64,000 nt of DNA from Bacteroidia bacterium. GTDB taxonomy: Bacteria; Bacteroidota; Bacteroidia; CAIKAF01. The stretch lies in NCBI GenBank assembly GCA_016742095.1, contig JACVCJ010000013.1, positions 1-64,000 on the forward strand. Direction: 5' to 3'. The notes under the pieces are model-generated. The model was not told where the DNA came from. It saw nothing but the letters and a program-made list of their open reading frames with translations, and searched no databases. Shown in pieces: positions 35,553-47,119 of this stretch. A program made the position numbers and the translations under genes. The first letter of the stretch is position 1. Every line of letters starts with the position of its first letter.

Positions 35553-36115
35553 GCCGCTTTTCTTTTTTCGTACGCTTCGCGGCTCTGTTCCAGCCAGTAT
35601 ATGGTTTCGTTATCTTCTTTGAAGGTACCTTTTTTCAGGAATCCCGCTTTTTCCAGCACCCGCTGCGACGCATAATTTTCCAGGTGCGTGCAGGCATACA
35701 GAACCTCCTGCTTCATTACGTCAAAACCATAGTCTGTAAGCGCCAGGGCGGCCTCCGTGGCATAGCCCGTTCCCCAGAACCTGCGCGCCAGGCGATATCC
35801 CAGGTCGTAAAAATCCCGGTGTCCGTTGCGTACTTCGGTATGAAATTTAAACCCTGCCCAGCCGATAAAAACGCTATCTTCCTTACGTACTGCCGCCCAG
35901 CGGGCAATGCCGAAATCTGTGTACTGCCGGCGGATCATCTGTATCACGGCCTGCATTTCTTCAAGGCTCTGCACGGGTCTGTTGCCCAGGTAACGGTGTA
36001 CTTCGGGGTCGGAATCCATCCGGAAGAGATCCGCTTCATCTCCGGGTACGATCTCCCGGAAAAGCAGGCGCGGCGATTCAAGCCGTATGAGATTCTGTGC
36101 GGGATCGTGCAGCAT
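35543..36115 (-). CDS. GNAT family N-acetyltransferase
   Basis: Acetyltransferase of 190 residues, of the RimJ/RimL-like branch. It opens with LIRLESPRLLFREIVPGD and has the acetyl-CoA loop region RLARRFWGTGYATEAALALTDYGF, then YACTHLENYASQRVLEKAGF. The ATG at 36115 is chosen because the family begins there; the longer frame to 36205 overlaps the glycosyltransferase gene. It overlaps that gene by 38 bp on the same strand, so it is read last in the RDD-VanW-GNAT run. The substrate is unknown. Confidence 0.87.
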   Translation of the reverse strand: MLHDPAQNLIRLESPRLLFREIVPGDEADLFRMDSDPEVHRYLGNRPVQSLEEMQAVIQMIRRQYTDFGIARWAAVRKEDSVFIGWAGFKFHTEVRNGHRDFYDLGYRLARRFWGTGYATEAALALTDYGFDVMKQEVLYACTHLENYASQRVLEKAGFLKKGTFKEDNETIYWLEQSREAYEKRKAAQP

Positions 36116-37859
36116 AGGTCTGTTGTATTTCAAGGTATTTTTCTTCCATGGCGGCGGCGCTGATCTTCGGAAGCACATACAGGCCTTCCTGCGGGGGAAT
36201 GCCACATGCCGCAGAGGCGATCACGGGAATGCCCGCTGCCAGGGCGCGCAGCAGTATACGGGGCTGATGTTCCACGTATGCGGGCAGCACCAGCAGCGCA
36301 ACATTTTCGAGCGAAAGCGGGGAATGCACTACATCGGTATCCTTCCAGAAACCGGGTCCTTCGGATGCATTGCCGCTAACGTGGATGCGGTGGCCGTACT
36401 TCTGTGCCCATTCGCGTACTTCGTAAGCGCCTTTGCGGGCCAGGGCCGCGGCCGGGAACAGTATTTTTCCGCCGGATGTGACCGTTTTTTTATCCGCCGG
36501 ACCTTGCATCCAGTCGCTGTACACGGTCTTTCCCGGGAAAAGAGCGGCTGTTTCCGCATGGGGCGTGAGCAGTTTACGGGCCTGCTGCAGGGCCTGGTAT
36601 TCATCGCGGGCAAAGGTTTCGTCCACCCGGAAGTCGGCGGCAGTACTGCTTTCGGGGTACAGCTGTGCCAGATCGTCGAGGCGTTGCTGCAACACATGCA
36701 GGGGCAGCCGGGTCATCAGCACATCGTAACTGCGGCCGGCCAGCACGCCGTATGGATAAAGAAAGGGCAGCAGATTCTGTGGAATGACGAGGTGGCGGAC
36801 CCCGACCGGTATACGTTTTGCCAGGCGCCGGGCTATCAGGCGGTCGTACTTCATCAGCAGGGAAGGAATGTTCCGGCCACGTTTTGCGGCATAACGTATA
36901 TGCATGGACCTGCGCAGTGCCAGGAAGGAAAAGTCAGAGGCTTTGCCGTTGCCGGTCTCCCAGCAGAGGCGGGCTATGCTAAAGCGCGAACGTTTCGTGA
37001 ACGGAAAAAACGTATAGTCATCCGGTTGAATATTTAATTTAGTATATTCATAAAATTCCGGCCATTTTTCATCACCGGCCCAGAGTGTTCTGCCGGGGTT
37101 CCCGGCCGTAGTGCCGTGTTTGTGGTGATTGCTGCACAGGGTGTTCCCGCAGGTCATACAGTCTTTGAGAAAGGCGGGACTTTCGGAGGCGAGATCCGTA
37201 TCTGCCGGTTGTCCGCCCCGGGTGCCACGCAGCTGTACGATCAGCTCCGTATCCGTCATTTGTATGTCTATACGAAAATTGTGTTCCGAACAGAAACGCA
37301 GGTCTATGTAATTCCATTTTACGGTAGCGTCGCGGTTTTGTTCGGCCAGGGAGCCTCTGACCACGCGGGAGTGGCGGTGCCGTTCCAGGATGTGGAAACC
37401 GGCTTTCAGCGCGGCGTCGTACAGGGCGTTCGACAACTGACAGAGTCCGCCGCCGGTAACGGGCACCAGGCATCCCTCGCGGATCTCTCTGCCCTGTACA
37501 TAGCCCTTGCGGCGGGTCGCTTTACCGATCTGCTTCCAGAAACTGAAGGTGCCGTTAGCGGGTACTTCCAGTCCCTGCAACTGTTTTATGGCTATACGAA
37601 GGTTCTGTACCTTGCCGGCCGTGAGTATAAAGTTGCCGGCATTGTCTTCTGTATTCCAGAGTGGACTGCGGGACTCGGCAATAAGTGGCAGCGGGGATTC
37701 CTGCGTAGATTGGGGGTATTTACGCAGCCCGCTGAACATATTCTGTCCCCGGCGCCGGGCAATGTGCAGCTGCACTTTACAGGCAAAGATAAAGCGCTGC
37801 AGGGGCGAATGTATTTCGGCTTTCTGTGTGTCGTTGAGCAGGGGTTCCATAGAGGGCAT
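36078..37859 (-). CDS. VanW domain fused to a glycosyltransferase-like domain
   Basis: Two-part protein of 593 residues. Residues ~70-220 are a VanW domain: NGTFSFWKQIG, KGYVQGREI, VTGGGLCQLSNALYDAAL and ERHRHS match the family, which is found in vancomycin-resistance and cell-wall proteins of unknown function. After a Cys/His-rich link (CMTCGNTLCSNHHKH at about 240-255) the C-terminal ~330 residues resemble a GT-B glycosyltransferase end, with LLRALAAGIPVIASAACGIP. No signal peptide or membrane segment is seen, so it is probably cytoplasmic. It starts 4 bp after the RDD gene and overlaps the GNAT gene, so the three form one unit. Confidence 0.7.
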   Translation of the reverse strand: MPSMEPLLNDTQKAEIHSPLQRFIFACKVQLHIARRRGQNMFSGLRKYPQSTQESPLPLIAESRSPLWNTEDNAGNFILTAGKVQNLRIAIKQLQGLEVPANGTFSFWKQIGKATRRKGYVQGREIREGCLVPVTGGGLCQLSNALYDAALKAGFHILERHRHSRVVRGSLAEQNRDATVKWNYIDLRFCSEHNFRIDIQMTDTELIVQLRGTRGGQPADTDLASESPAFLKDCMTCGNTLCSNHHKHGTTAGNPGRTLWAGDEKWPEFYEYTKLNIQPDDYTFFPFTKRSRFSIARLCWETGNGKASDFSFLALRRSMHIRYAAKRGRNIPSLLMKYDRLIARRLAKRIPVGVRHLVIPQNLLPFLYPYGVLAGRSYDVLMTRLPLHVLQQRLDDLAQLYPESSTAADFRVDETFARDEYQALQQARKLLTPHAETAALFPGKTVYSDWMQGPADKKTVTSGGKILFPAAALARKGAYEVREWAQKYGHRIHVSGNASEGPGFWKDTDVVHSPLSLENVALLVLPAYVEHQPRILLRALAAGIPVIASAACGIPPQEGLYVLPKISAAAMEEKYLEIQQTYAARSRTESHTA

Positions 37860-38448: not shown

Positions 38449-38721
38449 TCAGCGGCCCTTTTTATCCGTTTTGAGTGCTTTTCCCGGTTTTCTTTGTTCC
38501 TGTTCTTCTATTTTCCTTTGTCCCTTTAGGTATACATATCCTATAACACCGATAAATCCTCCTGCAAACGGGTTCAGTATAAGTTCGATTTCAGAAGGTT
38601 CATCCGCAAAACCGAGGATCCAGGTTAAAATATTCCCCAGGCTGAAAATAACAGCGGGGAGGATGATCATCAGGAATAACGAGGATTGAATAATTTTTTG
38701 AACTTTTCTGATCTCTTTCAT
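38449..38721 (-). CDS. Small two-helix membrane protein, unknown
   Basis: Not recognised. It has 90 residues with two membrane helices (about 13-37 and 50-66) separated by a short acidic loop, and a very basic/charged cytoplasmic tail (from KGQRKIEEQEQRK). Base composition is AT-richer than the flanks, like the three genes upstream of it, so it may belong to the same acquired islet. 39 bp separate it from the thioredoxin-like gene, whose stop lies just before. Confidence 0.6.
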   Translation of the reverse strand: MKEIRKVQKIIQSSLFLMIILPAVIFSLGNILTWILGFADEPSEIELILNPFAGGFIGVIGYVYLKGQRKIEEQEQRKPGKALKTDKKGR

Positions 38722-38760: not shown

Positions 38761-40020
38761 CTACTTTTTAATCTTTAGTTTTTTCGTAAGCTGCTCATAT
38801 ACCCGATTTGCGAGATAATCTCCTTTTAAGTCCCTTCCTTTAATTTCTTTATAGGTTTGTTTGGCAGCTTCTTTATCACCTAACATAAACAGAATAGCGC
38901 TTTTCATGACATAGGCCTGGGATACCGGACTAAGCGAAATAGCCTGATTTATATACTTTAATCTGCGGGTTAATCGTTCTTCTTCCATACGAGTGTCAAG
39001 GTTCATAACAGCAGATAATATGAACAAAGCCTGGTAATTATTTTTCAATTTGTCAAAAAATTCATTTTCAAGACTTTCATAAGCTGCCATATCCTTCCGA
39101 AAGTAGTACTGGTAGTCCCGTTCATTCTGCAGTGGTTCAAAATAGCTGAAAACAAGTCCCTTATATGTTTTCCCGTCTTCATTCGGAATACGGTAAATAT
39201 TATCACGCCAATGCGTGGCTATTACTGTTTTAGCTGCTGTATATGCCTTTTCATCCCTTTTTTTAAATGCTTCGCCCATTTGGTTACCTGCGATAAGATT
39301 TAATGTATAGGCAACTCTTGAAGAATCAAAAGAGGCATAAAGCAATTCCGGGTGTTTTATCATAAACTGATAAGAGGCCGACGGGAAATCTAAAACAGTT
39401 CTTTGATCGTATACGGCAAAATCCATAAAGAAGTGGATAAAAAGAGAATCTGTGTATGCTTCTTCAGGAAATGAATTGAAGCCTTTGATAATCGTTTCAG
39501 AATCCAGCGTATTGGCAATATCTAAATTACGTACATGCCATTCCATGAAGACATAGTCCTGTTCCTTCAGCTTAGCCTCTTCTCTTTGTTTCTTCAATGA
39601 TTTATCGGGAGATATGGCATATTGAAGCTGCCGCAAAAAATCTGTGGATTGCATAGGTCCGCAAATCCGATGCAATTGCTGTTTTTTACTGTCAATAATC
39701 ACAAAATCCGGTTGTGGCCCTACCTGGAACATTTTTTTTATTGCTATGCCTTCTTTTGATAAAGTATTGATCGAATAATTATGAAAATTAGTATTCAAAA
39801 ATGTTACTACGGCGGAATCGACTAATGCGGTCTGATCCATCTGTACGCAACCGGGGCAACCTTTAAAGTGGAAGTAAAGCATGGAGAAAGCCTTCTCAGA
39901 GGGAATACTGTCTTTTAACAGTACCTTTTCATCTTCAAATATTACGCTGAACTTCTGCTGCGCAAAACAGCAAAGTGCAGTGAATAAACAGGCGGATAAT
40001 AAACTAAAGCGGTACAACAT
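38761..40020 (-). CDS. Secreted thioredoxin-like protein with helical C-terminal part
   Basis: Exported protein of 419 residues with a signal peptide (LFTALCCFAQ). A thioredoxin-like region lies at about 30-135 with a CPGC motif (Cys55, Cys58) behind a strand (AFSMLYFHF) and a later Pro before a strand (QPDFVIIDS). The remaining ~270 residues look all-helical with spaced repeats and may be TPR-like. Its start overlaps the end of the cysteine-rich lipoprotein gene before it by 17 bp. It probably acts on disulfides of those lipoproteins; that is inference. Confidence 0.7.
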   Translation of the reverse strand: MLYRFSLLSACLFTALCCFAQQKFSVIFEDEKVLLKDSIPSEKAFSMLYFHFKGCPGCVQMDQTALVDSAVVTFLNTNFHNYSINTLSKEGIAIKKMFQVGPQPDFVIIDSKKQQLHRICGPMQSTDFLRQLQYAISPDKSLKKQREEAKLKEQDYVFMEWHVRNLDIANTLDSETIIKGFNSFPEEAYTDSLFIHFFMDFAVYDQRTVLDFPSASYQFMIKHPELLYASFDSSRVAYTLNLIAGNQMGEAFKKRDEKAYTAAKTVIATHWRDNIYRIPNEDGKTYKGLVFSYFEPLQNERDYQYYFRKDMAAYESLENEFFDKLKNNYQALFILSAVMNLDTRMEEERLTRRLKYINQAISLSPVSQAYVMKSAILFMLGDKEAAKQTYKEIKGRDLKGDYLANRVYEQLTKKLKIKK

Positions 40021-40591
40021 TTACAGATGGTGCTTTTATTAATAAACCGGGTCCTAAAGTTACGACCTTTTCTACAAAGGTTACTTCTGCCTCACAGAAC
40101 AGGCAGGCATCGTCTACATCGCACATTGCATGGAAGTTATTGTTTACAATATACCCGTACCCTTTACATTTACCTCCGAACATAGAAGCAAGTATTGTAC
40201 ATTTACACTTTATTCTTACCTGGGTGTGTCCACCGCTTCCTACCATTATGTTAACCGGGGATTCAGGGTTGTCTGCGGGAATGTAGTAGTATTGTTGATT
40301 TACGATTAGGTTAACAACCGTTTCTTCTCCATCTTTATCAAATGAGGTTATACTCTCATCCATTATTCTAAAGGAAACAGGTTCGTCATTAGCGACTTTA
40401 GGTTTGTTTTGCCATTTTATAGTTGTAGTTTCATCCTGTTGAATCACCTGCATAACAGTTACTGTCTCTGCATTTTTCCCAATAAACACTTCTGTTATTG
40501 TAGCCTTTTTTGCACTAAATGCAGTGTTGTCTGCTTCATTACAAGCTGGCAGCAGACAAGTAATAAACAATATATGAAGTACTTTTTTCAT
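40004..40591 (-). CDS. Cysteine-patterned lipoprotein B, unknown
   Basis: Not recognised. It has 195 residues with a lipobox (CLLPACNEA, Cys17). The C-terminal part shows CKC, a third Cys 10 residues on, KGYGYIVNN, then Cys, Cys and Cys. The same order (CxC, C, GYxY/NN, C, C, C) is found in the next gene upstream, so the two are likely distant paralogues with a shared disulfide-rich domain. The first half is strand-rich. It overlaps the thioredoxin-like gene by 17 bp. Confidence 0.65.
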   Translation of the reverse strand: MKKVLHILFITCLLPACNEADNTAFSAKKATITEVFIGKNAETVTVMQVIQQDETTTIKWQNKPKVANDEPVSFRIMDESITSFDKDGEETVVNLIVNQQYYYIPADNPESPVNIMVGSGGHTQVRIKCKCTILASMFGGKCKGYGYIVNNNFHAMCDVDDACLFCEAEVTFVEKVVTLGPGLLIKAPSVNVVPL

Positions 40592-40607
40592 GCTTCTTTA
40601 AGAATTG

Positions 40608-41180
40608 TTATTTGGCATAGATCACGGTGCTTCCTGCACTAATACTTAATTCTTCACGTGAAGAAACTTTGCATTTCTTTTTACACGTACCTTGTGTGCA
40701 GGTAACGGTTACGGAGCTATGTTCCGGGTTGTTGTAAGAATAACCAATGAGACAGGTCCCGGGCTCTTCAATACCGCGGCATAGACAAGACACAACAAAA
40801 ACAGTACCGGGGGAAAGAGCCACCGGGTTTGCGGGGGCTTGGGGCGTAATTACATAAACCTGTTTTAGAAATCGTACGCTGAGGTCACTCTGAGACGCAG
40901 AAGGCAGGATCTGATAGTCCTGCGGTTTCAGCAGTAATACGGTTTTTTCTTCTGTTGGTGCTCCTTCTCCTTCAAGAACTTCATGAGTATACGTTACTTC
41001 CGGTGTATACAAATCACTAAATGAAAAACGATATGCTTTTTCAGTAGCACTATCAAAGAATTCCACAATTTCGGACGACGTACTGCTTTTAGCCGTATTC
41101 ATTGCCTGTTTTACGTCTTCCTCCCGCTTGCACGATAATACCAGCAGCAGGACTACTGCACTAAGGATTGTTTTCTTCAT
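40608..41180 (-). CDS. Cysteine-patterned lipoprotein A, unknown
   Basis: Not recognised. It has 190 residues with a lipobox (LVLSCKREE, Cys17). After a strand-rich first half comes the cysteine pattern CLC, Cys after 8 residues, LIGYSYNN, Cys, Cys and Cys (ending CKKKCK), matching lipoprotein B. It is the first gene of the AT-rich three-gene unit; 16 bp separate it from gene B. A promoter of the TAnnTTTG class is not evident upstream. Confidence 0.65.
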   Translation of the reverse strand: MKKTILSAVVLLLVLSCKREEDVKQAMNTAKSSTSSEIVEFFDSATEKAYRFSFSDLYTPEVTYTHEVLEGEGAPTEEKTVLLLKPQDYQILPSASQSDLSVRFLKQVYVITPQAPANPVALSPGTVFVVSCLCRGIEEPGTCLIGYSYNNPEHSSVTVTCTQGTCKKKCKVSSREELSISAGSTVIYAK

Positions 41181-41503: not shown

Positions 41504-41507
41504 GTAG

Positions 41508-41581
<74 letters not shown>

Positions 41582-45784: not shown

Positions 45785-45857
45785 GCATCCGTAGTTCAAT
45801 GGATAGAATAGCAGATTCCGGTTCTGTCGGTTGGGGGTTCGAGTCCCTCCGGATGCA
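45785..45857 (+). tRNA. tRNA-Arg (anticodon CCG)
   Basis: 73 nt. Acceptor GCATCCG/CGGATGC, anticodon stem GCAGA/TCTGT with loop TTCCGGT and anticodon CCG (45818-45820), T-arm GGGGGTTCGAGTCCCTC. Discriminator base A at 45857, CCA not encoded. Confidence 0.95.
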
Positions 45858-45887
45858 CAAAAGCTGTATAACTTTTTACACATGAAT

Positions 45888-45914
45888 ACCCGGACAGGAT
45901 CCGGGTTTTTTTTT
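45888..45914 (+). terminator. Terminator of tRNA-Arg
   Basis: ACCCGGA (45888-45894), loop CAGGA, TCCGGGT (45900-45906), then a run of nine Ts. 30 bp after the tRNA. Confidence 0.85.
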
Positions 45915-46009
45915 GCCGGTCTGTCAGAAATACTACCGATAATTTTTGCGGAAAAAATGAAATGCATTTTGTTTTTTAATTCCTTATATTGAACTCAAAT
46001 GTTATACCA

Positions 46010-47119
46010 ATGCCTTCTACTACAATATGTTCTGTTTGCCTTGAGAAAGAGAAAAAATCACTTGCCAAAAGAATAAAACGACGCATTAACAGAGCGATTA
46101 ATCGTCTTGGTTATTACTTTATGCTTAAACGACTCAGTCATGTCTGGGGGCGTTTCAGCATACTGATAATCTTATACCTGTTGCTTTGTATCTGCTGGTT
46201 CGTAATAAGAAATAATGCGGGGGGATTAAGAGGATTGCTAAATGGTCGGCTTAGGTTAAATGAGGGATTTTATGATTCCTGGTTCCCATCTTTTTCGGAA
46301 GATTTGTTTTTCTTCGGAATTGGTTTTATAGGTCTCATTCTTTCTACCAAATTGTTAAGAGAAGAGAGTTTTTACATCCGGGTGTCCTCACTTGCAAACG
46401 GCATTCATATGACAAAAGCTGCTGACAACCAGCTGCATCGGGAAATAAAAGCCATGCTTTCTTTTAACAAAATGTATAAAGTGAATCTTAAAATCAAAGA
46501 GATTGATCCTGAAAAGAAACATATTTTCGTAAATGCACATATGACTTTTACTACGGTAAACATGTGTGAGGATGATGAAATACCGGTTAATATAAAGGCG
46601 AAAGTGGAACCGGGTCCCTGTGTGAGCGGGAAATGGGGTTATATATCCAAAATGTCGGTCGAGCATATAAATGGAAGAGCTAAGAAACAGCTGGTAGAAC
46701 CAGTCCATATCTTCGATGGAGATGTTCAGGAGTTTAAGGGCCCGGAATCCTGGGAGCTTGAACTGGATTATCCTGTGCAGGGAAACGGAATGGCAAAAAT
46801 TTCTCTGTCCTTCAGTGTTTGGGTTCCCCTTGGTAGTGATTCCACGGATGAGAATAACTGGTTTTTAAGCGGAGTATTAGGTTACACGGAGAACTATAAC
46901 TTTTTTTTAGAAAATCTTTTATCCGAACCGATTGCTTTTACGTATAAGTATAAACATAGAACTCCTTTTGAAATTGATTCTGAGGATGAAATCAAAAAGG
47001 ATGGAGTCATTCGTGGAAATGGTACCGAAAAATTAGTTTCTGATGTGATTTTCAATAAAAAGGATACCTCTAAGGTCTTATTCAACACTTATAAAGAAGA
47101 TGCTCAACAAAAAAAATAA
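46010..47119 (+). CDS. Orphan two-helix membrane protein with beta-rich C-terminal region
   Basis: Not recognised. It has 369 residues: a basic N-terminal part with CSVC and a stretch of Arg/Lys (KRIKRRINRAINR), two membrane helices (about 50-72 and 100-118), then ~250 residues rich in alternating strands (VNLKIKEID, IFVNAHMTFTTVNM, AKISLSFSVWVPLG). The order of two helices followed by a beta-rich part recalls 2TM-beta effectors of nucleotide-signalling defence systems, but no cyclase or other defence gene is adjacent. Codon use is AT-rich and unlike its neighbours, and it lies just after tRNA-Arg, which suggests acquisition. The ATG at 46010 is preferred to a TTG at 45989. Confidence 0.65.
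   Translation: MPSTTICSVCLEKEKKSLAKRIKRRINRAINRLGYYFMLKRLSHVWGRFSILIILYLLLCICWFVIRNNAGGLRGLLNGRLRLNEGFYDSWFPSFSEDLFFFGIGFIGLILSTKLLREESFYIRVSSLANGIHMTKAADNQLHREIKAMLSFNKMYKVNLKIKEIDPEKKHIFVNAHMTFTTVNMCEDDEIPVNIKAKVEPGPCVSGKWGYISKMSVEHINGRAKKQLVEPVHIFDGDVQEFKGPESWELELDYPVQGNGMAKISLSFSVWVPLGSDSTDENNWFLSGVLGYTENYNFFLENLLSEPIAFTYKYKHRTPFEIDSEDEIKKDGVIRGNGTEKLVSDVIFNKKDTSKVLFNTYKEDAQQKK

Follow-up and report, generated by a model that had tools for sequence, protein, structure and literature searches.

A triplicated gene cassette of two six-cysteine lipoproteins and an exported thioredoxin-fold protein, a putative envelope redox unit in a Bacteroidia bacterium

The window, by which we mean the whole 64,000-nucleotide stretch of contig JACVCJ010000013.1 analysed here, contains a three-gene cassette on the reverse strand at the 3′ side of a tRNA-Ala gene. 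The features are as follows.

40608–41180, reverse strand: lipoprotein 1, 190 aa, with a six-cysteine domain at about residues 105–190 and no Pfam or NCBIfam match.
40004–40591, reverse strand: lipoprotein 2, 195 aa, with a six-cysteine domain at about residues 97–195 and an all-beta model.
38761–40020, reverse strand: exported thioredoxin-fold protein, 419 aa, with CPGC at residues 55–58, a third cysteine at residue 120 and a TPR-like helical tail at residues 142–414.
40004–40020, reverse strand: overlap of the lipoprotein 2 and thioredoxin genes, 17 bp, of equal length in all three cassettes of the genome.
41507–41581, reverse strand: tRNA-Ala(ggc), with the cassette on its 3′ side; synteny with relatives is kept up to this point.

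The three open reading frames and the 17-bp overlap of the second and third genes agree with the original prediction. A terminator and promoter scan gave results at chance level. An AT-rich ORF of 90 aa with two likely membrane helices (38449–38721) lies 39 bp after the thioredoxin gene. Neither of the other cassettes shows it, and it may be a fourth gene of the window copy. At 36078–37859 a 593-aa protein combines a VanW-like domain with a glycosyltransferase-like C-terminal region.

Both window lipoproteins carry a lipobox cysteine at position 17, followed by six cysteines in the C-terminal half. These are found at positions 132/134/143/161/166/170 in lipoprotein 1 and 129/131/142/157/163/166 in lipoprotein 2, and when each protein was shuffled 20,000 times the spacing pattern did not occur once. 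Neither lipoprotein has a Pfam or NCBIfam match above cut-off, so that no unrelated family was matched in these profile searches. The similarity between the two window lipoproteins is marginal (BLAST E 0.053, a score reached by 4 of 500 shuffles), and thus from this locus alone their proposed paralogy would be unproven.

A search of the genome with the window proteins revealed a cassette of the same gene order on contigs C2 (L013) and C47 (L014). The 17-bp overlap is present in all three, for C47 when the ATG at L014:9246 is used. The thioredoxin copies are 43–49% identical, the copies of lipoprotein 1 35–40% and those of lipoprotein 2 27–38%, with all six cysteines retained. Because the triplication keeps gene order, overlap and cysteines, the existence of a real three-gene envelope module is strongly supported. 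The additional copies also make the paralogy firm. The lipoprotein 1/2 pair of C2 reaches a local score of 114, where shuffles attain 60 at most, and a lipoprotein 2 profile picks up lipoprotein 1 of C2 (5e-10) and of C47 (9e-7). By sequence comparison lipoproteins 1 and 2 are therefore paralogous, as originally claimed, and this is clear in C2. The order CxC...C...C...C-x2-3-C is kept in all six lipoproteins of the genome despite identities of 15–40%. In the six-way alignment the initial Met, the lipidated Cys, a P..PV....G motif and the other cysteines of the set are invariant, with only the sixth cysteine moving by one residue to give CxxC or CxxxC. Thus, the cysteine order of the predicted shared motif extends to the other four lipoproteins, but its GY-x-Y/NN element does not.

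The model of lipoprotein 2 is all-beta (pLDDT 78). No convincing fold relative was found in the PDB, the best matches being weak (Foldseek E 0.2; VIA Z 2.6 with an rmsd of 9.4 over 110 residues). Searches of the six-cysteine domain against PDB sequences returned weak matches only, mostly antibodies and CD4, which we read as chance. The surface-export signal of Capnocytophaga is C-X-K-(D/E)2 (PMC5080379). Lipoprotein 1 continues after its lipid Cys as C-K-R-E-E-D, which resembles this signal with Arg in place of Lys. Because of this substitution and because the other five lipoprotein copies fit the signal less well, exposure of lipoprotein 1 at the surface is a suggestion only.

The third protein was predicted to be an exported CPGC thioredoxin-like protein with a long helical tail, and its model bears out the active site and the tail. 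The model (pLDDT 88) contains a thioredoxin fold at residues 25–139, with the active site C55-P-G-C58, and a helical tail at residues 142–414. Pro104, at the cis-Pro position, is invariant in the alignment. The export signal, as read from the sequence, is an N-terminal hydrophobic stretch ending in CFAQQ. For Pfam Thioredoxin_2 (gathering threshold 27 bits), the C2 and C47 copies score above threshold with 28.5 and 34.1 bits, and the window copy just below it with 24.1 bits. An additional cysteine, Cys120, is shared by the three cassette thioredoxins and lacking in the six relatives aligned with them. In the model it ends the strand 115–120, directly before Gly121. Superposition on E. coli thioredoxin (137 residues to 108) places Cys120 at the position of Val91. 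Val91 and Gly92 of E. coli thioredoxin lie in the substrate groove, which would put Cys120 in or beside this groove, and a role for Cys120 in the thioredoxin chemistry may be proposed.

With three thiols close together in the thioredoxin (Cys55, Cys58 and Cys120) and CxC and CxxC pairs in the lipoproteins, the six cysteines (CxC, C, C, CxxC) could instead form a metal site. The thioredoxin would then keep them reduced or deliver the metal in a Sco/CcmG-like manner. However, no Pfam metal-domain match was obtained, no evident metal transporter or oxidase adjoins any of the three cassettes, and the even number of cysteines suits disulfides. We regard a metal site as quite unlikely.

The best whole-chain Foldseek match of the thioredoxin is E. 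coli YbbN/CnoX (3qou; E 2.8e-5 over 402 columns), which shares with it a thioredoxin domain followed by a TPR tail. Since the global TM score is low, the likeness is one of domain order rather than of exact arrangement. CnoX works in the cytoplasm together with GroEL/ES, and its E. coli form has SxxC (PMC8129009). Unlike CnoX, the cassette thioredoxin carries a signal peptide and is therefore not expected in the cytoplasm, has a CPGC site and the extra Cys120, and is encoded beside two lipoproteins. Taken alone, this match would suggest a general CnoX-like chaperedoxin of the envelope. The lipoproteins would then serve at the surface or as scaffolds, other enzymes would make their disulfides, and the genes would only be co-regulated. 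Relatives of the Trx-TPR family do stand alone, as this explanation would have it. Against it are the three intact triplets with their fixed overlap and the observation that the thioredoxin subfamily with CPGC and Cys120 is found only alongside the lipoproteins (3/3), and we consider it unlikely.

The thioredoxin domain alone superposes well on DsbD-gamma (2fwe; Z 15.2, rmsd 2.4 over 112 residues) and on chlamydial DsbH (2ju5; Z 15.1, rmsd 2.2 over 113 residues). The C-terminal domain of DsbD and DsbH are exported or periplasmic, as is predicted for the cassette thioredoxin, but they are without a TPR tail. The score against the NCBIfam DsbH model (NF043050) is 16.7 bits, far below the cut-off of 190. 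DsbH is described as a reducing dithiol oxidoreductase, and the chlamydial envelope has two cysteine-rich proteins, OmcA and OmcB (PMC5193440, PMC6752827). DsbH and these two outer-membrane proteins may offer a parallel in function only; we claim no homology, and none between the cassette lipoproteins and OmcA or OmcB. Exported Bacteroidota Trx-TPR proteins of about 400 aa (for example L052) share the signal peptide, the thioredoxin domain and the helical or TPR tail. They differ in having CGGC, CGAC or CGPC sites, no Cys120 and no six-cysteine neighbours.

The distribution scans are samples and may lack the records closest to the genome of the window. Within them the cassette thioredoxin is absent from 15 other genomes of the family, and a full thioredoxin of its subfamily is absent from the rest of 395 genomes of the class. 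The only match in a scan of the genome collection is from Lishizhenia tianjinensis (24% identity across most of its length), and this Trx-TPR gene (L052) has no six-cysteine neighbour. Distant Trx-TPR relatives without six-cysteine lipoproteins are found at L018, L052, L045 and about 25 other loci in Bacteroidota. The expected co-occurrence of thioredoxin and lipoproteins therefore holds for the close CPGC subfamily and fails for these distant relatives.

For the six-cysteine domain a domain-only profile replaced the full-length lipoprotein profile in the class search, because most of the extra matches of the latter covered the lipobox region only. Two matches of the domain profile (L088 and L089) we read as out-of-frame noise and not as genes. 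Genome G338 encodes an exported six-cysteine protein (E = 5.8e-7), and the gene of a TlpA-type CPPC thioredoxin follows it after 59 bp. This pairing speaks for a link between thioredoxin and six-cysteine protein. Since thioredoxin-like genes are common in Bacteroidota, the neighbour could be due to chance, for which we estimate a few per cent. In G016 one protein has two six-cysteine domains (L095 6316–7152), and a thioredoxin-TPR gene with a CYWC site is found two genes from it. A lipoprotein of G129 shows the six-cysteine pattern and has no thioredoxin beside it. Judged by these sequence matches, the six-cysteine domain is rare but not unique to this genome. The distant Trx-TPR relatives and the six-cysteine relative of G129, which lack partner genes, count against a reading of the lipoproteins as clients of the thioredoxin.

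All three cassettes are located 46–668 bp from, and on the 3′ side of, different tRNA genes.

Window: tRNA-Ala, 41507–41581; cassette about 327 bp 3′.
C2: tRNA-Met, L013 6480–6556; cassette about 668 bp 3′, with one small ORF between.
C47: tRNA-Asn, L014 7849–7923; cassette about 46 bp 3′.

Assuming about 40 tRNA genes in 3.7 Mb, such proximity would arise by chance in roughly 1% of cases per copy. The related genomes G001 and G011 conserve a PorZ-RecO-fructosamine kinase-tRNA-Ala block, and because their genes past the tRNA differ, the cassette occupies a break in synteny. The GC content of the window genes is 0.44, 0.38 and 0.38 for lipoprotein 1, lipoprotein 2 and the thioredoxin (GC3 0.32–0.39). 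Long ORFs in the neighbourhood of the cassettes have 0.53 ± 0.04. The C2 and C47 cassettes, at 0.47–0.51, are near the genome's value. The AT-richness first attributed to the module is thus a property of the window copy only.

This setting raises the alternative of a mobile, lineage-specific cassette at tRNA sites, encoding a diversifying surface factor for competition or as a receptor, with redox chemistry serving its folding only. Such an origin would fit the tRNA positions of all three copies, the restricted distribution, the fast drift of the lipoproteins and the foreign GC of the window copy. Yet no integrase was seen beside the cassettes, and origin by tRNA-end duplication was rejected, as no repeat was found within 12 kb of the three tRNAs in the sequence examined. 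PADLOC and PHROGs gave no credible match to defence or phage families, weak TnsB and LolB matches lying on or near the signal-peptide end, and carriage by a phage, plasmid or virus found no match. We consider a mobile surface factor quite unlikely. Two other genes were noted in these regions. A 376-aa AT-rich gene in the window (45785–47119, GC 0.375) has no Pfam or PHROGs match and lies about 130 bp 3′ of a tRNA-Arg gene. Each of the two strongly AT-rich coding blocks found in the window thus comes after a tRNA gene. The protein encoded at L014 143–1480, at a distance of about 6.5 kb from the cassette of C47, has an HEAWHVVQQ motif like that of DUF4157 proteins of contractile injection loci.

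The reading that we prefer, with a probability we place slightly above even, is a translationally coupled envelope redox cassette consisting of a dedicated oxidoreductase and its two cysteine-rich lipoprotein clients. The two paralogous lipoproteins would be exported and lipidated, each with a small six-cysteine beta domain whose cysteines would most simply form three disulfides. The TPR-like tail of the exported thioredoxin may bind these clients. Its DsbD-gamma/DsbH-like CPGC site, with Cys120 beside the substrate groove, would then reduce or reshuffle their disulfides. The likeness to DsbD-gamma and DsbH would favour reduction or isomerisation over oxidation. Of the envelope redox unit originally predicted, the three-gene module is established by its triplication, while action of the thioredoxin on the lipoprotein cysteines is what we infer from this architecture. 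A bolder version would be a previously undescribed envelope system of mobile appearance. Its exported chaperedoxin, with a third cysteine at the active site, would be dedicated to a matched pair of six-cysteine lipoproteins and service them by a thiol relay. Three parallel versions, located at tRNA sites, would then coexist in the same cell, and each might be specific for its own pair. We put this forward as a speculative and rather unlikely proposal.

To our knowledge, the ways in which Bacteroidota handle disulfides in their envelope are poorly mapped, and we know of few dedicated oxidoreductase–client pairs. The cassette has the look of a unit restricted to one lineage that would manage the disulfides of its own lipoproteins, and it defines an unnamed six-cysteine domain that is rare in other Bacteroidota. 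With three parallel cassettes and the likely clients encoded next door, it would allow a direct test of whether specific lipoproteins are recognised by an exported thioredoxin.
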